Assembly: GCF_004122115.1 (NCBI RefSeq)
Contig: NZ_SBKP01000009.1
Location: 1 to 64,000 of the forward strand
Direction: 5' to 3'
DNA length: 64,000 bases
Origin: Sphingobium fluviale
GTDB lineage: Bacteria > Pseudomonadota > Alphaproteobacteria > Sphingomonadales > Sphingomonadaceae
Of this stretch, positions 17,747-32,549 are shown piece after piece. Below the pieces are notes generated by a model. That model worked only from the letters and a program-made list of their open reading frames with translations. It was not told where the DNA came from and did not search any database. The position numbers and the translations under genes were made by a program. How positions within the stretch are numbered: position 1 is the first letter of the stretch; every line of letters begins with the position of its first letter.

Positions 17747-19732
17747 TCAGCGCGCGAACCGCACCCCGACCCAGATGGTGCGCGAGGTACCGAGATCGAT
17801 CGAGCCGCCCGCATTGCGTGTAATGACCGCCTTGTCGAACAGATTCTCGACCCGGCCTACCAGCGAAGCGCCATGTCCCAATGGAAGGCTCGCGGTGGCA
17901 TCGACGGTGAACGCGCCGGGCAGGGCGTCGGTCTGGAGATCATCCTCATATTGCGTGCTGACATAGCGCAGGGTTGCGGAGAGCGACGGGCCGCGCTCGG
18001 GTGCCCATGCGAGGGTGGTGCTCGCGGCGTGGGCGGGGGTTTGCGCCGGGCGGAGGCCGTCGAACTGCTGCCCCGGCGCTTTGACCTTACTGTCGGTATA
18101 GGCATAGCTTGCGGAGAGGGAGGCATCGCCCCGCCGCGCGCTGGCATTGAGCTCTATCCCCTTGGCGACGATCGCATCGACATTCTGGCGCCTGCGTGTC
18201 GTGGTATTGACGGTGACGTTGGCAATGGCTTTTTCCACGTGGATTAAGAAGGCGCTTGCCGAAAGCGTGACCCCGCCCGCCGGTTTCACGTCAAAACCCG
18301 CTTCAAAACCCTTGAGCGTCTCCGGTTTCAGGGCGGGATTCGCCTGTGTGGTGATGGGAAACACGACAAATCCGCGATAAAGCTCGTTCAATGTAGGCAA
18401 GCGAAAGCCGGTATAAGCGGCGGCGCGGACGCTTGCCACCTCGCTTAGCCGCAGCAGCGCACCGCCGCGAAAACTCACCCTCCAGTCCTTGCGGTCGGCA
18501 TAGCCGATATGGGTCAGCACGCCCGCCGGGCTGGTGCTGTCGTTGAACCCGTTGCGGATGCTCCAGCGATCCGCCCGTGCGCCGCCGGTCAGGATCAGCC
18601 GGCCCAAGGTCCAGTCGTCCTCTATGAAGAAGCCCGTCGTGGTCTGGTCGCCGCCCGCATGGCGATGCGCGGTCGCAAGGCCGGTGACGGTGCTATAGGG
18701 ATCTTCATACATGTCGCCGGTTGCATATCGCGTGTCCGCGCCGATGCGCAGCACATGGGCCTTGCCGACCGGCGGGCGCAGCTCGATCTTGCCGCCGATG
18801 CCGGTGGACGGTGTCTTGCGCTGGTCGAGCGTCTTGCGGAAGTTCGTCGCGCTGATCACAACATTGCCGAAATCGCGCGCCTGCACATAGGCGAGCGCAT
18901 CCACCTGCCAGGCACCCCGTCCGATAAGGCGGATGCTGGCATCCATGCCCTCGCTGCGGCTGTCGGCCCCGGCAAAGCGCAGGGTGCGGTCGTCGCGAAA
19001 CACGGTTGCGTGCGCCTGCAGCTCGAAATCGGTGCGCAGCGGCACGGCCGCGCGCACGGAGGTGGACCAGCTTTCGTAACGCGCGGTCACGCTGGCGCTT
19101 ACGCGCTGGTTCTCCGGCGTCGTCCAGAATCCGTCGCCCCGATCCCACCGGCCTGAGATGGAGACGAACCCCGCGCCCAGATTGGGGGAGAAGGAGGCGG
19201 ACAGCTCGCTCGCATCGCGGCTGCCATAAAAGGCGCTCGCCGAGAGGAGCGGCAGGTCTGCGCGCGTCGCGCTGGCGAGCTCGATCGTGCCCGCCACCGC
19301 TCCCGCGCCGAACGCCCCGACGCCACCACCGCGCGTGATGCGAACGAGCGAGAGCCGCTCCGGCACCAGCGCATTGAAGGGGATATAGCCGAAAAAGGGA
19401 TCGGCGACGGGTATGCCGTCCAGCAGCACCAAAGTGCGGCTCGAAGCGTTGCCGCCCAGCGCCCGCACCGTCGCGCCCTGTGCCGAAGGATTGGCGGAGC
19501 GGCTGTCGGAGCGGCGGAACTGCTGAAATCCCGCAACGTCAGCCAATATCGTCTCGATCCGCCCCGATGCGCTGTCCGTCAGCCGGTCGCGGTCGATCGT
19601 CACCGAGCCATAAGCCGGTGTCGCGGGCGGGAGCGGGAGCACACCACCCAATACGACGATAGTGCTGTTTTCCTGCGCGGCTGCAGGCAGCGCGCATCCC
19701 AGCGCGGTGAGGGCGATAATATATCTTGGCAT
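17747..19732 (-). CDS. TonB-dependent receptor
   Basis: A 661-residue outer-membrane receptor. It has a signal peptide (IIALTALGCALPAAAQ), an N-terminal plug (RIETILADVAGFQQFRRSDS; RTLVLLDGIPVADP) and a 22-strand-type barrel ending in the usual aromatic/charged tail (IWVGVRFAR). The size and plug resemble BtuB-like receptors, but no cobalamin riboswitch is evident upstream. It lies 145 bases downstream of a SulP permease on the same strand, so it may belong to the sulfur operon. The ligand is unknown. Confidence 0.88.
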   Translation of the reverse strand: MPRYIIALTALGCALPAAAQENSTIVVLGGVLPLPPATPAYGSVTIDRDRLTDSASGRIETILADVAGFQQFRRSDSRSANPSAQGATVRALGGNASSRTLVLLDGIPVADPFFGYIPFNALVPERLSLVRITRGGGVGAFGAGAVAGTIELASATRADLPLLSASAFYGSRDASELSASFSPNLGAGFVSISGRWDRGDGFWTTPENQRVSASVTARYESWSTSVRAAVPLRTDFELQAHATVFRDDRTLRFAGADSRSEGMDASIRLIGRGAWQVDALAYVQARDFGNVVISATNFRKTLDQRKTPSTGIGGKIELRPPVGKAHVLRIGADTRYATGDMYEDPYSTVTGLATAHRHAGGDQTTTGFFIEDDWTLGRLILTGGARADRWSIRNGFNDSTSPAGVLTHIGYADRKDWRVSFRGGALLRLSEVASVRAAAYTGFRLPTLNELYRGFVVFPITTQANPALKPETLKGFEAGFDVKPAGGVTLSASAFLIHVEKAIANVTVNTTTRRRQNVDAIVAKGIELNASARRGDASLSASYAYTDSKVKAPGQQFDGLRPAQTPAHAASTTLAWAPERGPSLSATLRYVSTQYEDDLQTDALPGAFTVDATASLPLGHGASLVGRVENLFDKAVITRNAGGSIDLGTSRTIWVGVRFAR

Positions 19733-19877: not shown

Positions 19878-21686
19878 TTATATCATCCCCCTTGCGAGCC
19901 AGAGGTCGGACTGCCCTTGCGCTGCGTCCTCCGCATCCGCCAAAGTCATTGCGGTGGTGAACGCAGTGTTCTGCGAAAGAAAGATCTGCCCGGTAAGATC
20001 GCTTGGCAGCGCCGAATGTTCCAGCGCGTCCATCACCGGGCCTTTTACCTCGGAGAGGTGAAGCTTTACACCGGCATCGGCGAGGCGATGGTTGATCGCC
20101 TCGATGCTCTCGAGCGCGGAGGCGTCGATCGCGTTCACGGCGGAGCACATCAGGATCAGGTGCCTGAGCCTTGGCTGCTCGGCCACTGCCTCCAGCACAT
20201 AGTCCTCCAGCCAGCGGGCGTTCAGATAGGTGAGGCTCTCGTCAATGCGGATGGTAAGGATACGCGGATCGGTGAAAACCTTGTGCCGCTTGACGTTCCG
20301 GAAATGCTCGGTTTCGGGAACGCGCCCGACAATGGCGGCATGAGGCCGCGATGCGCGCCAGAGAAACAGTGCCAGGCTCAAGCCCACACCGGCGATTACG
20401 CCCGGCTCGACCCCGGCCAGCAGGGTGACGAGGATCGTCGCCATCATCGCCGCGAAATCCGGTTTGGAATAGCGGAACACATGGACGGGAGTCTTGAAAT
20501 CGACGAGGCTGAGCACGGCGACGATGATGGTCGCGGCGAGCGTGGCGATTGGCAGCGACGCGAGCAGGGGTGTCAGGAACAACGCCGCGAGCAATATCCC
20601 CACGGCGGTAAAGGCGCCCGCCGCTGGCGTTTCGGCGCCCGCATCGAAATTGACGACCGAGCGCGCAAATCCGCCGGTTACGGGATAGCCGCCAGACAGG
20701 CTCGCCGCTATGTTGGCCGCGCCAAGACCGATCAACTCCTGATCCGGGCGGATACGTTGGCGCTTCTTGGCGGCGAGCGTCTGCGCGACCGAGACGCTCT
20801 CGACAAAGCCGATGATAGAGAGCAGCAACGCCGGCACCGCCAGCCGCTGCCACAAATCGGCATCGAACAACGGGACGGTCAAGGGCGGCAGACTCTGCGG
20901 AATGGCGCCGACGACCTTGACGCCTTGTGCTTCCAGATCGAGCGCGATCACCGCCAGCGTCGAAACGGCGACGGCGGCGATTGGTCCGGCTTTGGCGATC
21001 AGATCGGCGGGGCGGGCGGCGAGCCCCATGCGCATGAGCAGCGGCTTCAACCCCTTGCGAACCCAATAGAGAAAGGCGGTTGCCGCAACACCGATCATCA
21101 CCGTCGGCAGACTCGTCGCTCCAACATTCTGCCACAATGTACGCAGCAATTCCGGCATAGCCTCGCCGCTCGCCCTGATGCCCAGAATGGACTTTAGCTG
21201 GCTCGTGGCGATGATCAGCCCGGAGGCGGTGATGAAGCCAGATACAACAGGATGTGACAACAGATTAGCGAGGAACCCCAGCCGCAACACCCCCATCAGG
21301 ACCAGCATCAGGCCAGAGAGCAGCGCCAGCACCAGCGCGGCGGCGATGAACTGCGGGCTGCCTGGCGGCGCGATGTCGCTCGCTGCCGTCAGCGTCATCA
21401 ACGATATGACGGCCACCGGCCCCACCGCCAGCGTCCGGCTTGTTCCGAACAGCGCGTAGGCGATGATCGGCAGGATCGAGGCATAGAGCCCGATTTCCGG
21501 CGGCAACCCGGCGAGCATTGCGTAGGCAAGGCTCTGCGGGATCAGCATGATGGTGACGATCGCCGCCGCGACCAGATCGTTGGTCAGGGTCTCGCTCTTA
21601 TACCGTCGCCCCCAGTCGAGAACCGGCAGAAACCGGGCAAGCCCGTTCATCATCAGCGCCCGATCCTGTGCGGCTTCACCATCCAT
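19878..21686 (-). CDS. SulP-family sulfate permease with C-terminal STAS domain
   Basis: A 602-residue SLC26/SulP transporter. About 10-14 membrane segments lie between residues 30 and 440, including the family block MLIPQSLAYAMLAGLPPEIGL and the NIAASLSGGYPVTGGFARS region. A cytoplasmic STAS domain follows, containing LILMCSAVNAIDASALES. Members carry sulfate, bicarbonate or other anions. It is the fourth gene of a leftward set starting with a persulfide dioxygenase-like hydrolase, which suggests export or import of a sulfur oxyanion produced by detoxification. The specificity cannot be read from sequence. Confidence 0.9.
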   Translation of the reverse strand: MDGEAAQDRALMMNGLARFLPVLDWGRRYKSETLTNDLVAAAIVTIMLIPQSLAYAMLAGLPPEIGLYASILPIIAYALFGTSRTLAVGPVAVISLMTLTAASDIAPPGSPQFIAAALVLALLSGLMLVLMGVLRLGFLANLLSHPVVSGFITASGLIIATSQLKSILGIRASGEAMPELLRTLWQNVGATSLPTVMIGVAATAFLYWVRKGLKPLLMRMGLAARPADLIAKAGPIAAVAVSTLAVIALDLEAQGVKVVGAIPQSLPPLTVPLFDADLWQRLAVPALLLSIIGFVESVSVAQTLAAKKRQRIRPDQELIGLGAANIAASLSGGYPVTGGFARSVVNFDAGAETPAAGAFTAVGILLAALFLTPLLASLPIATLAATIIVAVLSLVDFKTPVHVFRYSKPDFAAMMATILVTLLAGVEPGVIAGVGLSLALFLWRASRPHAAIVGRVPETEHFRNVKRHKVFTDPRILTIRIDESLTYLNARWLEDYVLEAVAEQPRLRHLILMCSAVNAIDASALESIEAINHRLADAGVKLHLSEVKGPVMDALEHSALPSDLTGQIFLSQNTAFTTAMTLADAEDAAQGQSDLWLARGMI

Positions 21687-21701: not shown

Positions 21702-22112
21702 TTATCGAGTGGCGACCCGGTGCGCGATCATTCCCCCCAGCATCGCCAGAACGACGATCACCGCCTTGCCGGGCGCGAGCGCGAGATCGGCGAGCGCTGG
21801 CCCTGGGCACAGGCCGCTGATGCCCCAGCCCATGCCGAACAGAACCGCGCCAGATGCGAGCTTGCCGTCGATCCTGCTCGTGCCCGGCAAATCGAAATGT
21901 GCGTCGGCAAAGGGCTTGTCGAGGCGACGCTGGATGACCCATGCTATCGCCATCGGGATCATCGCCCCGCCCATGACGAAGGCCAAGGTCGGATCCCAGT
22001 TGCCGAACAGGTCAAGGAAGCTCTGCACCCGCTGCGGATCGGCCATGCCGGAAAAGGCCAGACCCGTGCCAAACAACAGGCCCGCGATCAGGGCGACCCC
22101 AGCGCGGTTCAC
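21702..22112 (-). CDS. YeeE/YedE-family half transporter, second gene of the pair
   Basis: A 136-residue membrane protein starting with GTG, which overlaps the preceding gene by the four bases GTGA. It has about four hydrophobic segments and the FGMGWGISGLCPGPAL block, whose cysteine lies in the conserved transport motif of the YeeE/YedE (TsuA-like) fold. This small type usually pairs with a second half-length protein to build one transporter, as described for PmpA/PmpB. Likely substrates are reduced sulfur species. It sits between its partner gene and the SulP permease. Confidence 0.85.
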   Translation of the reverse strand: MNRAGVALIAGLLFGTGLAFSGMADPQRVQSFLDLFGNWDPTLAFVMGGAMIPMAIAWVIQRRLDKPFADAHFDLPGTSRIDGKLASGAVLFGMGWGISGLCPGPALADLALAPGKAVIVVLAMLGGMIAHRVATR

Positions 22113-22549
22113 AATATACCTCCCGCGCGCATTGCGGCCACGGTCGCAAATCCCGCGCCCATGAACACTGCCGTGGCGACGATGGATCGTCGGGACAGGC
22201 GGGACATGCCGCATACGCCATGCCCGCTGGTGCATCCCGATCCCAGCCGCGTGCCAAATCCCACCAGAAGCCCGCCGATGATGAGCGGGAGCGGCGAGTC
22301 GGGAAAGTGCGTGACAACGCCTCCGGTAAACATCGACACGATCAGTGCGCCCAGAGGCAGGCCAAGGATGAAAGCGGCCGCCACAACGCGCGGCGCCCCG
22401 GTATCGGCCAGCCCTGTTGCGCGCGCGGCCAGCCCGCTCACGCCGGCAATGCGGCCCAGCCCCAACAGCATGATCGCTGCGGCCAGCCCGATCATCAGGC
22501 CGCCCACAAAGCCTTCGACCGGCATGGCGTGAGGGAAGACCGGTATCAC
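22109..22549 (-). CDS. YeeE/YedE-family half transporter, first gene of the pair
   Basis: A 146-residue membrane protein with four hydrophobic segments and the conserved block GFGTRLGSGCTSGHGVCG, where the cysteines line the thiosulfate or persulfide path of YeeE-type carriers. It starts with GTG at 22549, overlapping the stop of the hydrolase gene by four bases, so it is translationally coupled. With its neighbour it should form a complete carrier for a reduced sulfur compound. Confidence 0.87.
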   Translation of the reverse strand: MIPVFPHAMPVEGFVGGLMIGLAAAIMLLGLGRIAGVSGLAARATGLADTGAPRVVAAAFILGLPLGALIVSMFTGGVVTHFPDSPLPLIIGGLLVGFGTRLGSGCTSGHGVCGMSRLSRRSIVATAVFMGAGFATVAAMRAGGIL

Positions 22550-23463
22550 AGCGCGTCCACCGGGATCTTGAGATAGGTCATGCCATTGCCCTCAGGCGGC
22601 GGCATATGCCCGGCGCGCATGTTGACCTGCACCGATGGCAGGATCAGCCTCGGCATCGCCAGCGTCTTGTCGCGCGCTTCGCGCATCGCGACGAACTCAT
22701 CTTCGCTTATGCCATCGTGGATATGGATATTGGCCTTCCGCTCGGCCTCGACCGTCGTCTCCCAGACATAGTTCGTCCGCCCTTCTGGCAGATAGTCATG
22801 GCACATGAATAGCCGCGTATCGGGCGGGAGCGAGAGCAGGCGGCGTGCCGACTGATAGAGCCTGCGCGCGTCGCCGCCCGGAAAGTCCGCCCGCGCGGTG
22901 CCGTAATCGGGCATGAACATGGTGTCGCCGACGAAGGCGGCGTCGCCGATTACATAGGCGATGCAGGCGGGCGTATGACCCGGCACGTGCAGAACCGTGA
23001 CATCCAGATTGCCGATCTTGAATGTGTCGCCATCGGCGAACAGGGCGTCGAAGTCCGAGCCGTCGCGCCTGAATTCCGGCCCGGCATTGAAGACGGCGCC
23101 GAACACCTGCTGCACCGTGGCGATATGCTCACCGATAGCGATTTTGCCGCCCAGTTCCTTTTGAAGATAGGGCGCGGCGGAGAGATGGTCGGCATGCGCG
23201 TGGGTTTCGAGCAGCCAGTCGACGCCGAGCGCCTTATCTTTGACATAAGCGAGGATCGCGTCGGCTGACGCGCGGGAGGTGCGGCCCGATGCGGGATCAT
23301 AATCGAGCACGCTGTCGACGACTGCCGCCCGATGGGTTTCGGGGTCATGCACCACATAGGAGACGGTGAAGGTAGGCTCGTCGAAAAATGCCTTGATCAC
23401 AGGAGCCCCGGATTGCGCCGCGCGAACCTGCGCGCAGGCGGTTGCAAGGGCTGAGTCGCTCAT
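22546..23463 (-). CDS. MBL-fold hydrolase, persulfide dioxygenase-like
   Basis: A 305-residue metallo-beta-lactamase-fold protein. The metal motif THAHADHLS gives His88, His90, Asp92 and His93. Further ligands fit VPGHTPACIAYV, VGDTMFMPDYGTARADFPGG and MCHDY, a pattern typical of the ETHE1/Blh persulfide dioxygenase branch, which oxidises glutathione persulfide to sulfite. The start at 23463 has AGGAG eight bases upstream; a longer frame to 23520 would run through the operator. It leads the leftward operon with two YeeE genes and SulP, divergent from a peroxiredoxin and an ArsR repressor. Confidence 0.85.
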   Translation of the reverse strand: MSDSALATACAQVRAAQSGAPVIKAFFDEPTFTVSYVVHDPETHRAAVVDSVLDYDPASGRTSRASADAILAYVKDKALGVDWLLETHAHADHLSAAPYLQKELGGKIAIGEHIATVQQVFGAVFNAGPEFRRDGSDFDALFADGDTFKIGNLDVTVLHVPGHTPACIAYVIGDAAFVGDTMFMPDYGTARADFPGGDARRLYQSARRLLSLPPDTRLFMCHDYLPEGRTNYVWETTVEAERKANIHIHDGISEDEFVAMREARDKTLAMPRLILPSVQVNMRAGHMPPPEGNGMTYLKIPVDAL

Positions 23464-23486: not shown

Positions 23487-23503
23487 TTACATAATATATG
23501 TAA
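23487..23503. promoter_or_regulatory. Probable operator of the ArsR/BigR-like repressor
   Basis: A perfect inverted repeat, TTACATA (23487-23493), spacer ATA, TATGTAA (23497-23503), sits in a very AT-rich stretch inside the ~100-bp gap between the divergent hydrolase and peroxiredoxin genes. Dyads of this AT-rich kind are bound by ArsR-type repressors of the BigR/SqrR group. One site could control both directions. The regulator encoded at 24196 is the natural candidate. Confidence 0.7.
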
Positions 23504-23566: not shown

Positions 23567-24199
23567 ATGCAGGATGAGTACCGAATGGATGGCAGGCCGC
23601 CGTTGCGCATCGGCGACAGCGCGCCGGACTTCAGCGCACGCAGTACCGCCGGGGACGTGAAACTATCGCAATTTCGCGGAAAATGGCTGGTCTTTTTCTC
23701 TCACCCGGCAGATTTTACGCCGGTCTGCACGACCGAGTTCGTTGCTCTGGCACAAGCGGCCAGCCGGTTCTCCGCGCTCGATTGCGCCTTGCTGGGCCTG
23801 TCGGTCGACAGCCTGTTTTCGCACATGGCCTGGATACGCGCGATCCGGGAGGTCTTCGGCGTCACTATCGATTTTCCTGTAATCGAGGATCCCAGCATGG
23901 CGGTGGGCCGCGCATTCGGGATGATCGGCGAGTACGCGCGCGATAGCGCAACTATCCGTAGCACTTACTTCATTGATCCCGATGGCATCATACGCGCGAT
24001 CACCAGCTATCCGCATAATGTCGGGCGCTCGGTGGATGAGATGCTGCGGATGGTCGCGGCGCTGCAGCGCGCTGCGGGCGATACCGTGTTGACGCCAGAA
24101 GGCTGGCAACCGGGCGAGCCTGTATTGATGCCGCCATCCGCAGCCGCGGTCGATGAGGGTGACGCTGGCTGGTTCTGCCGGCGGGTGGCTGCGCCATGA
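23567..24199 (+). CDS. Peroxiredoxin (AhpC/TSA, 1-Cys/Prx6-like)
   Basis: A 210-residue thioredoxin-fold peroxidase. The peroxidatic motif HPADFTPVCTTEF places the reactive cysteine at residue 54, and the C-terminal extension contains GWQPGEPVLMPPS, as in Prx6-type enzymes. It reduces peroxides or persulfides in the cytoplasm. The start is uncertain: 23567 (MQDEYR), 23585 (behind AGGATGAG) or a TTG directly after the operator; I prefer 23567. It overlaps the ArsR gene by four bases (ATGA), so the two are cotranscribed, and it diverges from the persulfide dioxygenase operon. Confidence 0.9.
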   Translation: MQDEYRMDGRPPLRIGDSAPDFSARSTAGDVKLSQFRGKWLVFFSHPADFTPVCTTEFVALAQAASRFSALDCALLGLSVDSLFSHMAWIRAIREVFGVTIDFPVIEDPSMAVGRAFGMIGEYARDSATIRSTYFIDPDGIIRAITSYPHNVGRSVDEMLRMVAALQRAAGDTVLTPEGWQPGEPVLMPPSAAAVDEGDAGWFCRRVAAP

Positions 24200-24597
24200 G
24201 CGCGCTCTATCAGAGCCGGGCGCTTGCCGATGCCGCGACCGAAAAGCTCAAGGTTTACGCCCAGCCGCAGCGGCTGATGATACTCTCTTGCCTGCTGCGG
24301 GGGGAGAAGACGGTGGGCGCAATCGACATGGCGACAGGGATTGGCCAGCCCGCGCTCAGCCAGCAACTAGCCGAATTGCGTCGCGCCGAGATGGTGAGGA
24401 CTCGCCGCGAGGCGAAGCAGGTCTTTTATGACCTCGCCGACGACAAGGTCCGGCTGTGCGTGCGCAGTATGGAGGTAATTCTCGGTGACGGCGCCGATCT
24501 GCCCAAGGCGCTCGGTTCGGTTCTCCGGTCGGAGCAAGCAGCCGATGCGCCATCCGGGAAGCCTGCCGGTGCCGCCGCCTTTGCGAGGATCGGATGA
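24196..24597 (+). CDS. ArsR-family repressor, BigR/SqrR-like
   Basis: A 133-residue winged-helix regulator with PQRLMILSCLLRGEKTVG, the recognition region GIGQPALSQQLAELR and the wing TRREAKQVFYDL. The order and spacing match BigR/SqrR, persulfide-sensing repressors that use two cysteines. Cys32 corresponds to the first sensor cysteine. The second is not at the canonical helix-5 position, where I count Gly97, but there is a Cys88 nine residues earlier. It presumably controls both itself and the divergent sulfur operon through the dyad at 23487. The C-terminal tail of ~35 residues is Pro/Ala-rich. Confidence 0.87.
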   Translation: MSALYQSRALADAATEKLKVYAQPQRLMILSCLLRGEKTVGAIDMATGIGQPALSQQLAELRRAEMVRTRREAKQVFYDLADDKVRLCVRSMEVILGDGADLPKALGSVLRSEQAADAPSGKPAGAAAFARIG

Positions 24598-24763: not shown

Positions 24764-25201
24764 CTAGAACTTCCCGTCTATCGATAAAGGCGGGCTGGAT
24801 CTGGGGCGGCGCATGGCACCCCGCCGGGAATAGGTTGTTCCGCCCCGGCCTGTCACGCGCTCCAGTTCCTTGCCCACCGCGTCCAGCATCTCGGCGGAGA
24901 GGCCGATCTGCCGCTCCAGGATGGCGCTGTTGACGGTGGCGGCGCGGTTGAGGTCTTCGCTGGTTTCGGCAAAGGCGCGGCGGTCATCCCCCGCTAGCGC
25001 CTCCATCCAGCCCGGATCACGCCGGTAGAGCGCAGCGCATTGCGCCTCCATGCGATCGGCAAGGCGGATTTTCGCCTGCGCGATTGCCTCTATCGTCCCG
25101 CGCGGGCCGGATAGGGCGAGCAGCTCGCTCTCCTCCTCCATCAGGCGGATGAGGTCGATCATCGTATCCAGAAGCTCCGCGAGGTCGACTCGCATGCTCA
25201 T
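24764..25201 (-). CDS. FlgN-like flagellar chaperone
   Basis: A 145-residue, mostly helical protein (LAELLDTMIDLIRLMEEES; IAQAKIRLADRMEAQ). FlgN chaperones bind the hook-filament junction proteins FlgK and FlgL and are short coiled-coil proteins with little sequence conservation, so the call rests on position and helix pattern. It overlaps the flgJ-like gene by four bases (ATGA at 25198-25201) and ends the leftward flgI-flgJ-flgN set. The last ~30 residues are basic and Pro/Ser-rich. Confidence 0.6.
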   Translation of the reverse strand: MSMRVDLAELLDTMIDLIRLMEEESELLALSGPRGTIEAIAQAKIRLADRMEAQCAALYRRDPGWMEALAGDDRRAFAETSEDLNRAATVNSAILERQIGLSAEMLDAVGKELERVTGRGGTTYSRRGAMRRPRSSPPLSIDGKF

Positions 25202-25491
25202 GGCGTGGCTCCGTCCGCCTGCTGCAGTTTCACGATCTCGGCAAGCACGCTGTCGGCTATGCCGATGCCGCCGCCGCGCGCAATAGCGTTGCCTAGTTGT
25301 TCGGCCAGCACACCACGGAACAGCGCCTCGCCATGCCCGCCGGAAAATGCCCCCGGCTCAGCGCCACTTTCCAGCATCAGCTTTGTCATCTGGCCGATGA
25401 ATACTGCCTCGAAGTCTTGCGCCGCCGCGCGCGCCTTCTGGTCCGTTTGCGCTACGGTAGGGGGGACAATAGAGCGGACAGGATCAGTCAT
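25198..25491 (-). CDS. flgJ: Flagellar rod-binding protein FlgJ (N-terminal domain only)
   Basis: A 97-residue protein matching the rod-binding domain (PF10135): AAQDFEAVFIGQMTKLMLES, then GGHGEALFRGVLAEQLG. It lacks the C-terminal muramidase domain found in enterobacterial FlgJ, as is normal in alphaproteobacteria, where a separate lytic transglycosylase opens the wall. It acts in the periplasm as a rod-assembly factor. Its start overlaps the flgI stop by one base (TAATG). Confidence 0.85.
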   Translation of the reverse strand: MTDPVRSIVPPTVAQTDQKARAAAQDFEAVFIGQMTKLMLESGAEPGAFSGGHGEALFRGVLAEQLGNAIARGGGIGIADSVLAEIVKLQQADGATP

Positions 25492-26588
25492 TATTGCACC
25501 TCGATCTCGGCCTGAAGCGCGCCCGCGCTGCGCAGCGCCTGCAATATGGTTATGAGGTCGCGCGGGGAGACGCCCAGCCGATTGAGCCCGCCGACCAAAG
25601 TCTTGAGGCTCTCGCCCTCCACCATCGCCAGCGACGCGCCGCCTCCGTCATCCACCGAAACCTGGGTGCGCGGCAAAACCTGCGTCTGCCCTCCGGAAAG
25701 CGGGCCGGGCTGAGACGCGATGGGGTTCTCTGCCACGGATATGGTCAGCCCGCCCTGCGCGATGGCAACGGGCGAGATGCGCACATCTGCGGTCATCACC
25801 ACCGTGCCCGCCGCCTCGTTGACGATGACGCGGGCCGGGCTGTCTACCTCCACGCCCAGATTCTCCACCTGCGCAATGCGCTCGACCAGCGCCGCGCCAT
25901 CCGCGGCGGATAGGCGCACGGTTGCGGGGTCGAGCATCTCTGCGCTGCCTGGAAAGGTGGCGTTGATCGCCTTGGTGATCCGCTGCGCAGTGGTGAAATC
26001 CGGGTTGCGTAGCGCGAGCTTCAGCGCAGTAGCGGATTTGAGCGCATAAGGCACCTCGCGTTCGATGATCGCGCCCGAAGCGATGCGCGCCGAGGTCGAG
26101 ACGCCCCGACTGATATTCGCGCCCGCGCCCTGCGCCTTGAAGCCCGACACCGCAACCGGCCCCTGCGCCACGGCATAAATCTGCCCATCCATCCCCCTCA
26201 AGGCCGTGACGAGCAGCGTGCCGCCCTGCAGGCTGGTGGCATCGCCCAGCGCGCTCACCGTCACGTCAATCTGGCTTCCCGCGCGTGCAAAGGGCGGCAT
26301 CGCGGCAGTGACCGAAACGGCAGCGACATTCTGCGTCTTCATCTGGGCGGAGCGGACATTGACGCCCATGCGCTCCAGCATTGCCTGCATCGATTCCTCG
26401 GTGAAGGGGGTATTGCGCGTCTTGTCCCCCGTGCCTGCCAGCCCGACGACGAGGCCATAGCCGATCAGCTGGTTGGGGCGGACATTCTCGACATCGACAA
26501 TATCCTTGATGCGCGGTGCAGCGACGGCGGATCCGGGCCAGAGCAGCAGCACGGCGAGCAGCATCAGAAGTTTTTGCGGGATGAGCAT
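25491..26588 (-). CDS. flgI: Flagellar P-ring protein FlgI
   Basis: A 365-residue periplasmic protein with a signal peptide ([17 protein letters not shown]), then [20 protein letters not shown] and [10 protein letters not shown], hallmarks of FlgI. It forms the P ring around the rod. The frame is open upstream, but that part overlaps divergent fliX; ATG 26588 gives a proper signal peptide although the GGAGGG ribosome-binding site is very close. It is divergent from fliX, with 43 bases between the starts. Confidence 0.93.
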
Positions 26589-26631
26589 CCCTCCTATTAT
26601 AGAAGGGAGGAGGGCCGGAGCAGCGGCGCCT

Positions 26632-27111
26632 ATGGCAATCAATCCCATCAGCACTGGCACTCCACAGGCCATCACCCAGCAGGCGCTGGCGCTGGTGCGC
26701 GAGGCAATGCCGATTGCGCAGGCCGCGCAAAAGCTGCTGGGCGAAGGGCAGGGCGCGCAATCCACGCCCTTGTCCAGCGGCGCGAATATTTATCAAGCCA
26801 GCCCGCAGCAGGTGCTCGGTTCGGTGCAGATGCTGGTGGCGCTCTCGGCGCTCAATCCGCAGGAGGTGCGGCGGCGGGAGCAGATCGCCCATGCTCGGCG
26901 CGGGCTGGACGGGCTGGAGCGGCTGCACCGCGAATTGCTGGATGGCCATGCCGGGCGGCAGACGCTCGATGCGCTGAAAGGCTGGCTGAGTGAAGGCAAG
27001 GTGACGGACAGTCAAGGTCAACTGCCCGAAGACCCGCGCTTTGCCGGCCTGATGGACCAAATAGAGCTGCGCGTGCGGGTGGAGCTGGCGAAATTCAATA
27101 TCGAGGTTTAG
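26632..27111 (+). CDS. fliX: Flagellar assembly regulator FliX
   Basis: A 159-residue protein. The C-terminal half matches FliX, the class II flagellar assembly factor of alphaproteobacteria: an [15 protein letters not shown] helix, then [20 protein letters not shown]. In Caulobacter, FliX links flagellar assembly to activation of FlbD and sigma-54 promoters, and lies next to flgI in the same divergent arrangement. ATG 26632 has a strong GGGAGGAGG site; the open frame back to 26473 is antisense to flgI. No flbD gene is in the window. Confidence 0.85.
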
Positions 27112-27139
27112 CCGGATTTCGTTGAGACTACGGTATCGG

Positions 27140-27200
27140 CCCGCTTCCGCTCCCAACCGCCCGACAGGGTATCCTATGGGTGGCTGGGAGGGGGAGCGGG
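27140..27200. terminator. Long imperfect inverted repeat between fliX and flhB
   Basis: The left arm 27140-27162 and the right arm 27178-27200 pair over about 20 of 23 positions (CCCGCTTCCGCTCCC against GGGAGGGGGAGCGGG). It lies between the convergent fliX and flhB genes and probably works as a bidirectional terminator. Confidence 0.6.
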
Positions 27201-27212
27201 CTGGTGCGGCAT

Positions 27213-27245
27213 ATCCGAAACGCTGCAAAGCAGCCTGTTTCGGAT
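27213..27245. terminator. Nested hairpin at the flhB stop codon
   Basis: The 9-bp arms ATCCGAAAC (27213-27221) and GTTTCGGAT (27237-27245) enclose a second perfect stem, GCTGC-AAA-GCAGC. The structure touches the flhB stop codon. It has no T tract and may act as an mRNA 3' stabiliser or terminator for flhB. Confidence 0.5.
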
Positions 27246-28306
27246 CAGGGTTTGGAACGCGTCAGCCTCAGAACATAGCTGATAATCTCCGCAACGGCGG
27301 CATAATGCTCCAGCTTGATCGGCTGGTCGATCTCAACACTGGCGTAGAGCGCGCGGGCAAGCGGTGGGCTTTCCACCACCGGCACTTTGTGCTCCGCCGC
27401 AAGCTCGCGAATACGCAGCGCGATCCTGTCCCGCCCCTTCGCCACCACTACCGGTGCCTGCATTGCGCCATGATCGTAGCGCAGCGCCACGGCATAGTGC
27501 GTGGGGTTGGTGATGACCACGCTGGCGCTGGGGATGGCGGACATCATCCGCCGTCGCGCCCGCGCCATGCCGATGGCACGGATACGGGCCTTGATCTGCG
27601 GGTCGCCCTCGTTCTGTTTGTGCTCGTCGCGCACTTCCTGATGGCTCATGCGCTGCCGGGCCAGCCACGCGCGACGCTGATAGAGGAAATCTGCCGTCGC
27701 CAGCGCCGCCACCAGCAGCGCCACCGCGCGCAGCATATCGTGCGCCATAGCGGAGGCATATTGCCCTATCGCGCCTGCATCCGCGCCGGTCATGCGGTCC
27801 AGCCCGTGGAGCGCAGGCCAGACGACTGCGCCCGCCACAATCGCGACGAATATGAATTTCATCAGCGTCTTGCCGAACTCGACCCACGCCTGTTTGCCGA
27901 ACAGACGCTTTGCCCCGGCCATGGGCGATAGCCGATCCCATTTGAGCTTGAGCTGGCCGGAGAGGAACAGGCCGCGCCCTTGCACCAGCGCGCCCGCTAC
28001 CGCCGCGACCAGCGTCAGCAGCAGGATCGGCCCGACTGCAACCAGAATCCCGCCGAGCAGCGTGCGGGCAAGGCGCTGGGCATTGCCGCTGGTGAGCGCA
28101 AGATCGCCCGCGCCCTCCCACAAAGCCTCGGTCTGCGCCGCCAGCTGTGCCGTCGCCACCGCACCGAGTGCGCCGACAATCAGCAGCATTGCCGCAAACA
28201 TCGCCGCATGACGCATCTCTGGCGCGGAAGGCACATCGCCGCGTTTGTGCGCGTCCTCCAGCTTCTTGGGCGTGGGGTCTAGAGTTTTCTGATCCGCGTC
28301 AGCCAT
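27245..28306 (-). CDS. flhB: Flagellar type III export protein FlhB
   Basis: A 353-residue protein. Four membrane segments lie between about residues 35 and 210, and a cytoplasmic domain carries the self-cleavage motif NPTH at 267-270. FlhB controls the substrate-specificity switch of the flagellar export gate. The N-terminal DADQKTLDPTPKKLEDAHKR segment is standard. It is four bases after fliR in the leftward fliE-fliQ-fliR-flhB run. Confidence 0.95.
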   Translation of the reverse strand: MADADQKTLDPTPKKLEDAHKRGDVPSAPEMRHAAMFAAMLLIVGALGAVATAQLAAQTEALWEGAGDLALTSGNAQRLARTLLGGILVAVGPILLLTLVAAVAGALVQGRGLFLSGQLKLKWDRLSPMAGAKRLFGKQAWVEFGKTLMKFIFVAIVAGAVVWPALHGLDRMTGADAGAIGQYASAMAHDMLRAVALLVAALATADFLYQRRAWLARQRMSHQEVRDEHKQNEGDPQIKARIRAIGMARARRRMMSAIPSASVVITNPTHYAVALRYDHGAMQAPVVVAKGRDRIALRIRELAAEHKVPVVESPPLARALYASVEIDQPIKLEHYAAVAEIISYVLRLTRSKP

Positions 28307-28310
28307 GTTT

Positions 28311-29096
28311 TTAGCTCGCCAGCGCCCCCGCCCATTGCGCCATCTCCTGCGCGAAGCCCGAAAGCGCGACGCTCAGCGTCATCGCCAACAGCGCGAGGCC
28401 CAGCGCGATCGCCAGCGGCTGCGCGATGAAGAAGAGTTGCAACTGCGGCGCCAGCCGGGCTGCAACTCCCAGCGCGGTATTGAACAGGATGCCATAAATC
28501 ACCAGCGGCGCGGCGAGGCCCAGCCCCAGCGCCATCGCGCCGCTTGCCGCTTTCAATGCAAGTTGCGCGAAGTCTGCTGCGGGGGCCATCTCTCCGGGCG
28601 GAAAGACACCATAGCTTTGCACCAGCGCGCCGATCCACAGATGATGCACGCCCAGCGCCATGCAGACCAGCAGCGCGGCTATGCTGATAAAGCGGGCAAG
28701 CAGCGGCACCTGCCCCCCGGCGGAAGGATCCTGTACCAGCCCTGTCGTGAGGCCGACCTGAAGACTGATGATCGCGCCTGCAATCGTAATAGCAAGGAAC
28801 ATCAGCCGCACTACCCCGCCCAGCATCATGCCAGTGAGCAGCTCGACCAGCAGCAGATGCGCCAGCACCGCATTGCCTTCTATCGCTGCGTCTACTGCCG
28901 TGCCCATATGCGGACTGAGCAGCCCTTGCATCCCTGCTGCCAGCCCCAGCGCGATGAGCAGGCGGATCCTTCCCGGCACCGCATCGTCGGAAAAGCCGGG
29001 AAGCAGCATCAGCATCGCGCCCACGCGGGCGAAGATCAGTGCATGGAGGGTGAGGATGCGCGGGAGATCGGGCGCTACCGCGCTGAGCGCGTCCAC
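28311..29096 (-). CDS. fliR: Flagellar export gate protein FliR
   Basis: A 261-residue polytopic membrane protein with about six segments (ILTLHALIFARVGAMLMLLP; LLLVELLTGMMLGGVVRLMF). FliR forms the helical export gate with FliP and FliQ. GTG at 29096 is the likely start, four bases after the fliQ stop; the upstream extension of the frame overlaps fliQ. Confidence 0.9.
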   Translation of the reverse strand: MDALSAVAPDLPRILTLHALIFARVGAMLMLLPGFSDDAVPGRIRLLIALGLAAGMQGLLSPHMGTAVDAAIEGNAVLAHLLLVELLTGMMLGGVVRLMFLAITIAGAIISLQVGLTTGLVQDPSAGGQVPLLARFISIAALLVCMALGVHHLWIGALVQSYGVFPPGEMAPAADFAQLALKAASGAMALGLGLAAPLVIYGILFNTALGVAARLAPQLQLFFIAQPLAIALGLALLAMTLSVALSGFAQEMAQWAGALAS

Positions 29097-29100
29097 CCGC

Positions 29101-29364
29101 TCAAGGCCCGATGATACGCGCGGACAGCTCTGCCATGAAGGCCGAGAGCGCCGCACCGATCATCGGCAGGCTCAAGAGCAGCACTACGCCGATGCCGATC
29201 AGCTTGGGCACGAAGGTCAGCGTCATTTCCTGTATTTGCGTCAGCGCCTGCACCAGACCTATGATCACGCCGATGACGAGCGACGCGATCAGCATCGGCC
29301 CCGCTATGGTGAGCAGCAGGATCAGTGCCGTGCGCGAGAGGGCGAGCATATCGGCGGGGTCCAT
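29101..29364 (-). CDS. fliQ: Flagellar export gate protein FliQ
   Basis: An 87-residue protein with two transmembrane helices (ALILLLTIAGPMLIASLVIG; IGIGVVLLLSLPMIGAALSA) joined by the QALTQIQEMTLTFVPK loop, diagnostic of FliQ. It starts six bases after fliE. Confidence 0.95.
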   Translation of the reverse strand: MDPADMLALSRTALILLLTIAGPMLIASLVIGVIIGLVQALTQIQEMTLTFVPKLIGIGVVLLLSLPMIGAALSAFMAELSARIIGP

Positions 29365-29370
29365 ACGCGC

Positions 29371-29703
29371 CTAGATCTGCATGCGCATGATGTCGTTATA
29401 GGCGTTCACAACCCGATCCCGCACCGCCACCATGGTGTCGAGCGCAGTTTCGGCTGCGCCGATCGCGGTGGCGACGTCGATCAGGTCGCCCTTGCCCGCA
29501 ACCTGGGCGAGACTGGCGCTTTCGGCCTTTGAAAGTGCGCCCCCCACCTGACTAACCGCGCCTGCGACGAGATCGCCAAAGCCGGAAGAGGCCGGGATAT
29601 CTCCGACCGATGACGGAGCGGCATTGCCCGCCACTCCGTCCGCCACGCCGCGCGCCCGTCCATAGGCCGAAAGCGCGTCCAAGGCTCCGATAGAGTTTAC
29701 CAT
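29371..29703 (-). CDS. fliE: Flagellar hook-basal body protein FliE
   Basis: A 110-residue protein. The C-terminal helices (VATAIGAAETALDTMVAVRD; VVNAYNDIMRMQI) match FliE, which joins the MS ring to the proximal rod. The N-terminal half is Gly/Ala/Ser-rich and variable. It lies between flgC and fliQ in one leftward transcript. Confidence 0.93.
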   Translation of the reverse strand: MVNSIGALDALSAYGRARGVADGVAGNAAPSSVGDIPASSGFGDLVAGAVSQVGGALSKAESASLAQVAGKGDLIDVATAIGAAETALDTMVAVRDRVVNAYNDIMRMQI

Positions 29704-29716
29704 CGCGCCCTCCCTC

Positions 29717-30124
29717 CTACTTCAGCAGGTCTATCGTGCGCATCGTCAGCGTGCGTGCGGCCTCTATGGCATTCAGGTTCGCCTCATAGCCGCGCTGCGC
29801 CGCTTTCATGTCTGCCGCTTCGGTGAGCGAATTGACGTTGGGCATCAGCACATAGCCTTTGGCGTCTGCCGCCGGATTTCCGGGTTGATAGACGCGCGGA
29901 AAGGCGCTTTTGTCGCCTTTGATGGCGGGGACGGACACCTCTCGTGCGCCGCTTGCCTTGTCCACCTCCGCGCGGAAGGTGGGGACGCGGCGGCGATATG
30001 GCTGGCCGCCGGGGTTGGTCGCCACGGAGTCCGCATTGGCGAGATTTTCCGCGATCACCCGCATCCGCAGCGATTGCGCGCGCAGGCCGCTAGCCGACAC
30101 CTGAACCGAGCTTTCCAGATCCAT
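29717..30124 (-). CDS. flgC: Flagellar proximal rod protein FlgC
   Basis: A 135-residue rod protein. It begins MDLESSVQVSASGLRAQSLR and continues with RVIAENLANADSV, the conserved N-terminal rod motif; the C-terminal rod motif is MKAAQRGYEANLNAIEAART. ATG 30124 has AAAGGAGA upstream; the frame beyond it to 30442 crosses the divergent fliN and is not coding. The usual partner flgB is not beside it or elsewhere in the window. Confidence 0.93.
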   Translation of the reverse strand: MDLESSVQVSASGLRAQSLRMRVIAENLANADSVATNPGGQPYRRRVPTFRAEVDKASGAREVSVPAIKGDKSAFPRVYQPGNPAADAKGYVLMPNVNSLTEAADMKAAQRGYEANLNAIEAARTLTMRTIDLLK

Positions 30125-30221
30125 GAAATGTCTCCTTTGCTTCATCTTATAGGCAATAATTTCCGGGTTACGGCCGGGATGCGGCAGAATTTTCCTATCA
30201 TGGTGAGGAAGAGGATTGCGC

Positions 30222-30455
30222 ATGTCCGCCATCAACGATGTCGAGGTAGAGCTGTCTATAATATTGGGTGCGACCCGCCTGCCGGTGAGGGAAATCCTCG
30301 CGATGAGCCGCGGAGCAATGATCCCGCTCGATTGCACGCAGGACGACCCTAGCCTTGTCATCGTCAATGGCCACACCATCGCGCGCGGGCATATATTGGT
30401 GGAGGAAGACCGCATGTCGCTTGAAATCACCGAAGTCATCAAGCGGAGGCGCTAA
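30222..30455 (+). CDS. fliN: Short flagellar C-ring protein FliN
   Basis: A 77-residue protein consisting only of a SpoA/FliN domain (VEVELSIILGATRLPVREIL; GHTIARGHILVEED). Typical FliN proteins are 100-140 residues with an extra N-terminal part, so this is a minimal form. It sits in the C ring and helps CheY-dependent switching and export docking. ATG 30222 has GAGGA nearby; a TTG six bases earlier is less likely. It is followed after three bases by fliO. fliM and fliG are absent here. Confidence 0.85.
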   Translation: MSAINDVEVELSIILGATRLPVREILAMSRGAMIPLDCTQDDPSLVIVNGHTIARGHILVEEDRMSLEITEVIKRRR

Positions 30456-30458
30456 GCG

Positions 30459-30887
30459 ATGGACATTACGGACATACTGCGCACCCTTGCCGCCCTCTCT
30501 GCTGTACTTGCCCTGCTCGGTGCGGGTCTATGGATGGCGCGGCGTTTCGGCGTCGTAGGAGGGGGGAGTGCAGGGCATGGCCGTGTGGCGCGACTGGCGC
30601 TGGCCGAACGGATAGCGCTTGACCAGAAGCGCAGCATCGCGCTTGTGCGGCATGGCACCGCAGAGCATCTGATTTTGCTCGCACCCGAAGGCAATATCCT
30701 GCTGGGTGATCAGCGGGAAGAGATTGGCGAACCTATGGTAATAGATTTGGTTGCCTGCCGGGCGCTTGCAACCACCGTGCCGTTGCCACCTGCGCCTTCC
30801 CAGCCCCTATTGCCCGCACTGCCTGCTATCCGTCACCGTCCAACACGCATCCCGCGCCCCGATCCCTTTCCTGCCCGTTGCGCATGA
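30459..30887 (+). CDS. fliO: Flagellar biosynthesis protein FliO
   Basis: A 142-residue protein. One N-terminal membrane helix (LAALSAVLALLGAGLWMARR) is followed by a small cytoplasmic FliO domain (ARLALAERIALDQKRSIALV; LLLGDQ-like end) and a proline-rich tail of ~40 residues. FliO assists assembly of the FliP ring. It overlaps fliP by four bases (ATGA). Confidence 0.85.
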   Translation: MDITDILRTLAALSAVLALLGAGLWMARRFGVVGGGSAGHGRVARLALAERIALDQKRSIALVRHGTAEHLILLAPEGNILLGDQREEIGEPMVIDLVACRALATTVPLPPAPSQPLLPALPAIRHRPTRIPRPDPFPARCA

Positions 30888-31537
30888 CCCTCGACCCCAC
30901 TCAGTTTGAGATGAGCCGCCATCTGGTGCAACTCGTCATTGGCCTCACGGTGCTCAGCCTCGCGCCAGGCATCTTGATGACGGTGACGAGCTTTACGCGC
31001 ATCGTAGTGGCGCTCTCGCTGTTGCGCACCGGCATAGGCGCGCCAGGCGTGCCGCCCAATCCGGTTATCATCAGCCTCGCGCTGTTTCTAAGCTTTTTCG
31101 TAATGCAGCCGACGTTTGAAAAGGCATGGGAGGCCGGGGCGGCGCCATATGCTGACGGTACACTGGATGAGAAGGCCGCGTTGGAGCGGGCGTCTGCCCC
31201 CTTGCGCGATTTCATGCTGGGGCAGGTGCGGCCGGATGATCTGGCTCTATTTGTTGAGCTGTCGCGCAAGCCCGCACCCGAACGGGCGGCCATGCCGATG
31301 GGCGTACTCGTCCCGGCGTTCATGATATCCGAGCTGCGCCGCGCGTTCGAGATCGGCTTTCTGCTGCTGTTGCCGTTTCTGGTGATAGATCTGGCGGTCT
31401 CCGCTGTGTTGATGGCGATGGGCATGATGATGCTGCCACCCACCAGCATCGCACTGCCGATGAAGATCATCTTTTTCGTGCTGGTCGATGGCTGGTCGCT
31501 GGTGGCTGGCTCGCTGGTGAAAAGCTTTACGGCATGA
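30884..31537 (+). CDS. fliP: Flagellar export gate protein FliP
   Basis: A 217-residue membrane protein with the FliP blocks LMTVTSFTRIVVALSLLRTG, LALFLSFFVMQPTFEKAW, ASAPLRDFMLGQVR and LMAMGMMMLPPTSIALPMKI. FliP builds the core of the export gate. Many FliP proteins carry a cleaved signal peptide of ~20 residues; here the first membrane helix begins near residue 15, so none is present. The fliO overlap fixes the start at 30884. Confidence 0.92.
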   Translation: MTLDPTQFEMSRHLVQLVIGLTVLSLAPGILMTVTSFTRIVVALSLLRTGIGAPGVPPNPVIISLALFLSFFVMQPTFEKAWEAGAAPYADGTLDEKAALERASAPLRDFMLGQVRPDDLALFVELSRKPAPERAAMPMGVLVPAFMISELRRAFEIGFLLLLPFLVIDLAVSAVLMAMGMMMLPPTSIALPMKIIFFVLVDGWSLVAGSLVKSFTA

Positions 31538-31567
31538 GGGGGAGCGAGCCATGATGCCCGCTCCCCC
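31538..31567 (+). terminator. Terminator hairpin after fliP
   Basis: The perfect 9-bp arms GGGGGAGCG (31538-31546) and CGCTCCCCC (31559-31567) enclose a 12-base loop immediately after the fliP stop. The stem is very stable but has no T tract. It likely ends the fliN-fliO-fliP transcript. Confidence 0.65.
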
Positions 31568-31612
31568 ATGGCGCGTGTTCTGCGGCGTTCCCCAATCGCC
31601 GGGCGAGGCAGA

Positions 31613-31921
31613 CTATTTGGTCAGGAGAGCAATCAGCTCTGCTCCGCCCGTGTTGGTGGCGCCTTCTGCTTCATCCGCCGTAAAGGCTACAGAATAGCTT
31701 CCAAAATACCCGGACACCCTTCCATTTGCGAGAACGAGACGAAATGGCGTTTCAATGGAACCCGCTTTGCCACTGATTACTTTGGCCGCGCCTTTATCTA
31801 TAACAGTATAGCTGTAGGTTGTGCCATCATGAGTAAAATTTTTTACTTCCGGTTTTTCTGCAAGCGCAGGGGACGAAATAGAAAGAGCAGCCGCAGCGGC
31901 AGAAATAAACAGCATTCGCAT
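31613..31921 (-). CDS. Small secreted protein of unknown function
   Basis: A 102-residue protein with a clear signal peptide (MRMLFISAAAAALSISSPALA), giving a mature periplasmic protein of ~80 residues that appears beta-rich (YSYTVIDKGAAKVISG; FRLVLANGRVSGYFGSY). ATG 31921 has GAGGAG at good spacing, better than the ATGs further upstream. I do not recognise the family. It is leftward between the fliP terminator and an AT-rich gap, so it may be a separate transcription unit unrelated to motility. The flanking DNA is noticeably AT-richer than the flagellar genes. Confidence 0.65.
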   Translation of the reverse strand: MRMLFISAAAAALSISSPALAEKPEVKNFTHDGTTYSYTVIDKGAAKVISGKAGSIETPFRLVLANGRVSGYFGSYSVAFTADEAEGATNTGGAELIALLTK

Positions 31922-32086
31922 AAGTGATCTCCTCATTTGAATGCCAGACAAACATCCGGTTTTATTTTCGATCTCTTTTTCTCGCGGTGCAGCAATTCAT
32001 GCAACTGCAAAGAAGGAAAGAGCGGTTGCAAAGCTTGCATTGCCCGAAAATTTTATCGATTTTGCCAGGAAATTCTATATTGTGGA

Positions 32087-32521
32087 TCAGGTCGGCTTGG
32101 CGCTTGTTATGATGACGCGATGCACCATATTTTTGCCGAGTGACTCGATGGCGGCGCCGTTAACCACGGCAGCGAATACACGCAGATCCGGGAGGATATG
32201 GTCTGGCCCTGCGGCCATCGGCGTTGCCCATGTTCGCAGGTTGATGGCGTGCAGCAGCAACGGAATCTTCTCCGTCACCTCTGCCTGCTTGTCTGCTGAC
32301 ACCTCCAGTTGCACCTCAAAATTGGCGTAGCCGGACAGTCTGCCGTCTGTAGCAACAATGGGAGCAAGCAGGGTTCCTGCCGATATGAATACTGTTTCCG
32401 CCTTCGGTGGCGCGGCTTTTGGTGGAGGCGGGCCGAGGAGCTGAGCCACACCATAGGCTGCGCCTCCGCCAAGCCCTAAGCCGAGCGCCAACAGCAGAAT
32501 CAGTGTGAGCAGCTTCTTCAT
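32087..32521 (-). CDS. FliL-like membrane-anchored protein
   Basis: A 144-residue protein with one N-terminal transmembrane helix (LTLILLLALGLGLGGGAAYG), a Pro/Ala/Lys linker, and a periplasmic domain (NFEVQLEVSADKQAEVTEKI; PDLRVFAAVVNGAA). The topology and its position directly after motB fit FliL, the stator-associated protein that supports torque, but the sequence is divergent. It could instead be a clade-specific motility protein. It is the last gene of the leftward motA-to-motB operon. Confidence 0.55.
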   Translation of the reverse strand: MKKLLTLILLLALGLGLGGGAAYGVAQLLGPPPPKAAPPKAETVFISAGTLLAPIVATDGRLSGYANFEVQLEVSADKQAEVTEKIPLLLHAINLRTWATPMAAGPDHILPDLRVFAAVVNGAAIESLGKNMVHRVIITSAKPT

Positions 32522-32549
32522 TGCTTACTGTCCGTTTCCAAACAGCCTC

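Follow-up and report, generated by a model that had tools for sequence, protein, structure and literature searches.

The ArsR-family repressor encoded beside a peroxiredoxin gene in the window (the whole 64,000-nucleotide stretch of Sphingobium fluviale DNA analysed here) and the other members of its clade are shown by alignment to be devoid of the α2/α5 cysteine pair of BigR and SqrR. The only cysteines of the 133-residue protein are Cys32 and Cys88; as judged from the aligned orthologues these two do not form a conserved unit, and Cys88 alone is conserved. We propose, with a probability of about 0.45, a scheme in which the dimeric repressor works without the pair and would receive two inputs, one from the peroxiredoxin via a C-terminal tail and the other through Cys88 as a second thiol.

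The locus and the identity of the repressor

BigR (Xylella/Agrobacterium), SqrR (Rhodobacter capsulatus), HlyU and YgaV are two-cysteine ArsRs, most of which have been shown to be persulfide sensors. The window protein shares with all four the winged-helix ArsR fold and the adjoining persulfide dioxygenase and YeeE/YedE genes. Compared with the BigR/SqrR persulfide-sensing group (SSN cluster 4), it has the fold and the neighbouring sulfur-metabolism genes, with Ser31 in place of the α2 cysteine (BigR Cys42) and Gly97 in place of the α5 cysteine (BigR Cys108); also unlike BigR and SqrR, it has a peroxiredoxin in its operon and a C-terminal tail, and it misses the NCBIfam cut-off for BigR. Some ArsRs next to sulfur-oxidation genes have already been described as being without these two cysteines and as possibly acting by another mechanism (PMC12423496). 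The features of the locus are collected in Table 1.

Table 1. Genes, codons and motifs of the locus, in window coordinates.
Feature	Position	Strand	Evidence or remark
SulP sulfate permease	19878..21686	-	Pfam 3.4e-102; NCBIfam sulP 445.8 bits, over cut-off
DUF6691/YedE-type transporter half	21702..22235	-	Pfam DUF6691 2.5e-37; start uncertain, overlaps YeeE-type gene
YeeE-type sulfur transporter half	22109..22549	-	Pfam Sulf_transp 2.6e-12
Persulfide dioxygenase-like MBL-fold protein (Blh C-terminal part)	22546..23463	-	NCBIfam Blh; synteny
Palindrome TTACAT-N5-ATGTAA, proposed operator	23487..23503	+	Exact match, between divergent genes
Peroxiredoxin (Prx6/archaeal type)	23585..24199	+	AhpC-TSA 1.1e-33; 1-cysPrx_C 1.6e-5; PDB peroxiredoxins 5.8e-50
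Peroxiredoxin C-terminal Trp-Phe-Cys (WFC) cysteine	24176..24178	+	Comparison of partner peroxiredoxins
ArsR-family winged-helix repressor, 133 aa	24196..24597	+	Pfam HTH_5 3.5e-9; modelled fold nearest BigR 3pqj
Ser31 codon, canonical α2 cysteine column	24286..24288	+	Ser in 45/45 orthologues; Cys in 30/30 BigR-model matches
Cys32 codon, not conserved	24289..24291	+	Cys in 20/45 orthologues
Cys88 codon, invariant in clade, predicted dimer-facing side of α5	24457..24459	+	45/45 orthologues; 49/49 clade rows
Gly97 codon, canonical α5 cysteine column	24484..24486	+	107-sequence alignment
Tail motif, residues 125-133, G-A-A-A-F-A-R-I-G	24568..24594	+	Low-confidence model region, pLDDT <50

The stop codon of the peroxiredoxin gene overlaps the start of the ArsR gene (ATGA), and the genes for the dioxygenase, the two YeeE/YedE halves and SulP diverge from this pair. 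For the dioxygenase, ATG 23463 (minus strand) is the more likely start, and the peroxiredoxin probably begins at ATG 23585 (plus strand), the TTG 23504 of the ORF list being too early; these starts leave an intergenic region of 121 bp. The mechanical starts, GTG 23520 and TTG 23504, make both ORFs overlap. The Blh model of NCBIfam matched the dioxygenase with 4.5e-121 and 404.6 bits, which is under its cut-off of 625.

The ORF is an ArsR repressor, nearest to BigR/SqrR in sequence and modelled fold; the ORF is intact, and the domain and fold matches agree with the original prediction of a BigR/SqrR-like repressor. It passed the general ArsR/SmtB model HTH_metalloreg of NCBIfam (71.5 bits, cut-off 55) and reached 78.3 bits with the BigR equivalog NF040642, under the curated cut-off of 155; this latter score is weakly informative, since that cut-off was not reached in any of the 190 genomes of the class or the 14 controls either. 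Among solved structures (phmmer against the PDB) BigR was the best match, followed by NolR, with SqrR and HlyU also among the best. The structure model used was the second one made (mean pLDDT 76.5; the first, with a pLDDT of 57, was discarded as too poor); its blocks average at least 90 across residues 21–90, and residues 113–133 fall below 50. Foldseek ranked BigR 3pqj first, with an rmsd of 1.2 Å over 85 columns and a TM-score by target length of 0.81.

Loss of the canonical pair and the position of Cys88

The cysteine columns were assigned in two ways. In phmmer alignments without gaps, to BigR (3pqj) and to SqrR (13ct/6o8k), the canonical α2 cysteine pairs with Ser31, and Cys32 lies one residue further on. 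An alignment of 107 ArsRs was composed of 45 orthologues including the window protein (clade A), 32 members of a second ArsR group found in the same operon context (group B) and 30 from the loci of the top-scoring matches to the BigR model, and thus chosen towards the canonical type (group C); rows L002, L003, L004, L036.2 and L066.2 were left out of the counts. At position 31, Ser is present in 45/45 sequences of clade A, and Cys in 0/45, 2/32 and 30/30 sequences of groups A, B and C, respectively. At position 97, Cys is found in 3/45, 0/32 and 29/30, and at position 88 in 45/45, 1/32 and 0/30. Position 32 of clade A holds Cys in 20 of the 45 sequences and otherwise Y (8), L (8), F (5), S (2), H (1) or A (1). 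The phmmer alignment to BigR, which extends to residue 94, is consistent over its length with the placement of Gly97 and Cys88. As Ser31 and Gly97 occupy the canonical columns, both BigR/SqrR cysteines are missing. Cys32 had originally been taken for the first canonical cysteine, which both kinds of alignment rule out; the accompanying observation of a displaced cysteine held for the second site, which is indeed Gly97 with Cys88 nine residues earlier, and Cys88 did not align with the canonical site in the BigR/SqrR comparisons. The suggestion that the sensing geometry must differ, or that another partner is used, fits the absence of the pair, and the operon itself encodes a candidate for such a partner.

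In the model, α2 comprises residues 24–34, including Ser31 and Cys32, and α5 residues 83–96, including Cys88. Nine residues at 100 degrees each amount to 900 degrees, a half turn off, so that Cys88 lies on the face of α5 opposite to that of the canonical cysteine. In a homology model of HlyU the canonical α5 cysteine faces away from the dimer interface; in SmtB the α5 ligands, D104/H106 and H117'/E120', are described as spanning this interface (PMC1665450). Cys88 corresponds to about SmtB residue 110, by a phmmer offset extended three residues beyond the end of the aligned stretch, and the centre of the antiparallel α5 pair of SmtB is at about 112; the predicted position of Cys88 is therefore at the dimer interface, near the two-fold axis and the α5–α5' centre.

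A sulfur bridge between Cys32 and Cys88 of one protomer, as first suggested for the displaced cysteines, could draw on the presence of both residues in the window protein and in 20/45 orthologues, and on their location in modelled α2 and α5. We consider it very improbable, as Cys32 is neither canonical nor conserved, being absent from 25/45 orthologues, and Cys88 points to the other side of α5; the opposite face and the predicted interface position make such a bridge unlikely as a mechanism of the family. Cys88 could also be merely structural, since position 88 is hydrophobic (always V, L, I or M) in all 30 group-C rows.

A quick tree, which has one kind of support value and was built with the tail and columns 31, 32 and 88 left out, recovered clade A with locus L029 (49 rows, support 95) and group B with locus L149 (37 rows, support 96) as sisters (support 91). 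Cys is present at column 88 in all 49 rows of clade A, and among the 37 rows of group B in L035 alone. Cys occupies column 31 in the group-B rows L077, L079 and L117 and in L149, and 22 of the 32 group-B ArsR translations contain no cysteine whatever. L029 has kept Cys88 and has no tail, no visible peroxiredoxin and sox-like neighbours, and L149 has neither peroxiredoxin nor tail and lies beside cydAB-like genes; the neighbours of both were named from their translations. The ArsR of L029 (585–1007) carries a second Cys three residues after Cys88, and its neighbours resemble soxC and a c-type cytochrome in translation; it is a possible sox regulator. In an Agrobacterium plasmid ArsR linked to a peroxiredoxin (L250:3133–3567, class --C), Trp stands in the α2 cysteine column and the α5 cysteine is retained.

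These distributions bear on a reading in which Cys88 alone is the sensor, via an interprotomer disulfide or polysulfide or a mixed persulfide at the dimer interface, and the tail and the peroxiredoxin are unrelated to sensing. Its invariance across the orthologues and clade rows, its predicted place near the two-fold axis and its retention in L029 beside sox-like genes are all consistent with that. However, such a sensor cannot serve the sister group, which has the same operon and lacks Cys88 except in L035, and it leaves the association of the tail unexplained; we regard it as rather unlikely.

Two further types of ArsR were rejected for the window protein. A metal or arsenite sensor does not fit a protein with no His and no CxC, the ligand motifs of ArsR/SmtB proteins being the ELCV(C/G)D box or α5 DxHx10HxxE (PMC1665450, PMC8960804). 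The H2O2-sensing RexT of Nostoc likewise has no metal sites and uses vicinal Cys40-Cys41 in α3 (PMC8960804); in contrast, the window protein has no adjacent cysteines and none of that kind in α3, which excludes a RexT-type sensor. A literature search on the ligands of CzrA gave no match.

The C-terminal tail and its linkage to peroxiredoxin

In most ArsRs of clade A and group B the C-terminus is [GS]-x-A-x-F-A-[RK]-[ILVM] followed by a few further residues. An ArsR was counted as linked if a peroxiredoxin match lay on the same strand no further than 700 nt away in the first set, or 1200 nt in the new set. With the first regular expression the tail was present in 77/86 linked and 1/130 unlinked ArsRs, with an intermediate one, blind to GVAxFAR, in 63/86 and 1/130, and with [AT].F[APV] in 82/86 and 1/130. 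The last pattern fitted 12 of 18 linked ArsRs from newly fetched loci (L244 among them duplicates L020); of the rest, five have W for F and one has G for A. The motif A-x-[FW]-[APG], sought downstream of the last helix and widened to this form (A.[FW][APG]) after the data had been seen, occurs in 97/103 linked and 1/138 unlinked proteins among 241 distinct ArsRs; shuffling the C-termini of the linked set gave 9.5/103. The widening lost L011 and L052 (F then V) and L162, all caught by [AT].F[APV]; a machine match in L251 was excluded because it lies in a helix and not in the tail, and five of the fetched peroxiredoxin loci (L257–L261) have no ArsR. Of the six linked proteins without a match, L047 is truncated at a contig end, L052, L011, L157 and L162 have variant tails by eye, and in L089 no clear tail is seen. 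The one match among the unlinked proteins, L080, starts at a contig edge. Absence of the motif from the unlinked ArsRs is partly absence of an extension, because most have none at the C-terminus: at least 15 residues follow the helix in 26 of 138, and among these only L080 carries the motif.

New loci from rhizobia and from Methylobacterium plasmids have the tail as well, among them ArsRs that keep the canonical pair and operons in the order peroxiredoxin–dioxygenase–ArsR. As the rhizobial members keep the pair together with the tail and the peroxiredoxin, the tail does not simply replace the pair. An origin of the tail by overlap with the neighbouring gene was rejected, because it persists with differing downstream genes and gene orders. 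The association of tail and peroxiredoxin comes partly from shared descent. Tree contrasts, made without the contig-cut L047 and L080, gave 10 changes of peroxiredoxin state and four supported independent pairs, too few for significance; over these four the tail changed on average in the same direction in 2.8, in the opposite direction in 0.0 and not at all in 1.2. For loss of the cysteine at column 31 against peroxiredoxin linkage, three supported pairs gave 0.6 in the same direction and 2.4 unchanged, which is uninformative.

The small number of independent contrasts is compatible with a regulator that is blind to redox signals, being constitutive, autoregulatory or responsive to a non-thiol ligand, with a tail for dimerisation, DNA binding or turnover and a peroxiredoxin that has stayed in the operon by inheritance. 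Consistent with this, the majority of sister-group ArsRs mentioned above are free of cysteine, as is NolR of rhizobia, an ArsR whose signal is given as unknown and whose regulon is a different one, nodulation (PMC8960804). The window protein is like NolR, its second-best PDB match by sequence, in the absence of the BigR pair, and unlike it in retaining Cys88. A redox-blind regulator is nevertheless unlikely, given that the tail tracks the peroxiredoxin across gene orders and that L029 and L149 provide close contrasts within their clades, as do L157 versus L109 and L162 versus L198 (variant tails judged by eye).

On the side of the peroxiredoxin, the gene adjoins that of ArsR in 44/45 clade-A and 31/32 group-B loci, and a dioxygenase gene lies opposite within 1.5 kb in 42/45 and 19/32, many of these loci consisting of 1.5-kb flanks only. 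The reactive-site cysteine is present in 114/114 aligned peroxiredoxins. The C-terminal WFC cysteine occurs in 43 of the 46 readable partners of Cys88-clade ArsRs (48 in all, two unreadable) and in 0/55 partners of other linked ArsRs; the clade-A peroxiredoxins of L050, L051 and L053 have no C-terminal Cys, though their partner ArsRs retain Cys88. SqrR of R. capsulatus has been reported to control a candidate peroxiredoxin (PMC9995734). Among the literature matches listed, titles and abstract openings describe no such tail and no peroxiredoxin-coupled ArsR.

Candidate operator and proposed signalling

The palindrome TTACAT-N5-ATGTAA is the inferred operator. In the 3.07-Mb genome it is the sole match at up to one mismatch, and a reversed control pattern likewise matched once there; a second match, with two mismatches, lies inside the dioxygenase gene of the window. 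At up to one mismatch it occurs in 32 of 43 distinct clade-A intergenic regions (block shuffles, 0.1%), and at up to two mismatches in 10/21 group-B regions (shuffles, 1.0%) and 5/9 canonical peroxiredoxin-linked regions (shuffles, 2.0%).

In the scheme we favour, the ArsR dimer would repress both the divergent dioxygenase/sulfur-transport operon and its own peroxiredoxin–ArsR operon from this one shared palindrome. DNA would not be released by a sulfur bridge within the protomer, because the α2/α5 pair is absent. As the first input, the reactive cysteine of the peroxiredoxin would be oxidised or persulfidated, and the protein would then dock on the A-x-[FW]-A-[RK] tail and relay the signal, as the association of tail and peroxiredoxin suggests. 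As the second input, Cys88 near the two-fold axis may be modified, either directly or by the peroxiredoxin, so that the dimer is loosened. Sulfide/persulfide or peroxide stress would in this way derepress the detoxification genes, and the sister group, with neither Cys88 nor the pair, would rely on the first input alone. For the window repressor (24196..24597) we infer the DNA binding, the signal, the docking and any disulfide. Cys88 and the tail are separate traits, because L029 has Cys88 alone and group B, L035 apart, has the tail and the peroxiredoxin alone; two inputs are the simplest account of this separation, and the window protein has both. Going by the sequence comparisons, the main input would most likely be that of the peroxiredoxin through the tail.

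A relay in which the peroxiredoxin itself is the thiol sensor for sulfane sulfur or peroxide, and controls ArsR by docking on the tail, is a more tentative possibility. With sensing outsourced, the repressor's own pair could have been lost more than once while the regulon stayed unchanged; candidates for separate losses are clades A and B together (three B rows keep the first cysteine), Methylobacterium L249/L255, and L246. Peroxidase redox relays such as Orp1-Yap1 are familiar from eukaryotes, where a peroxidase acts as the sensor and hands the signal on to a transcription factor. The logic proposed here for a bacterial ArsR is the same as that of the eukaryotic Orp1-Yap1 and Prx2-STAT3 relays, and if the peroxiredoxin is the sensor the system would be a bacterial counterpart. 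The locus is a compact testable case, as it combines a sulfur context, a missing pair, a thiol on the opposite face of α5 and a tail, probably flexible, that goes with the peroxiredoxin gene.

Several observations were made on related loci. In Sphingopyxis granuli TFA the adjacent operons 0596-0593 and 0597-0601, possible counterparts of the present locus, are reported to be induced anaerobically, and 0596-0593 is given as sulfur detoxification plus alkylhydroperoxide reductase (PMC6472365). The operon of Sphingomonas naphthae additionally contains a PTP/NAD(P)-FAD oxidoreductase and a TauE/SafE gene. The genome of the window has a second dioxygenase locus (L002, G000:C14, near 17900–18157), whose ArsR carries the canonical cysteine pair, so both sensor types, with and without the pair, occur within one organism. 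On the Roseicitreum and Tropicibacter plasmids (L260 and L261) a gene for this kind of peroxiredoxin diverges from one annotated as a hydrogen peroxide-inducible genes activator and is followed by an MBL-fold gene. Downstream of the ArsR gene, positions 24764–33416 of the window encode flagellar-looking proteins (P-ring, FlhB, FliR, FliQ, FliP and MotB-like), named by eye.
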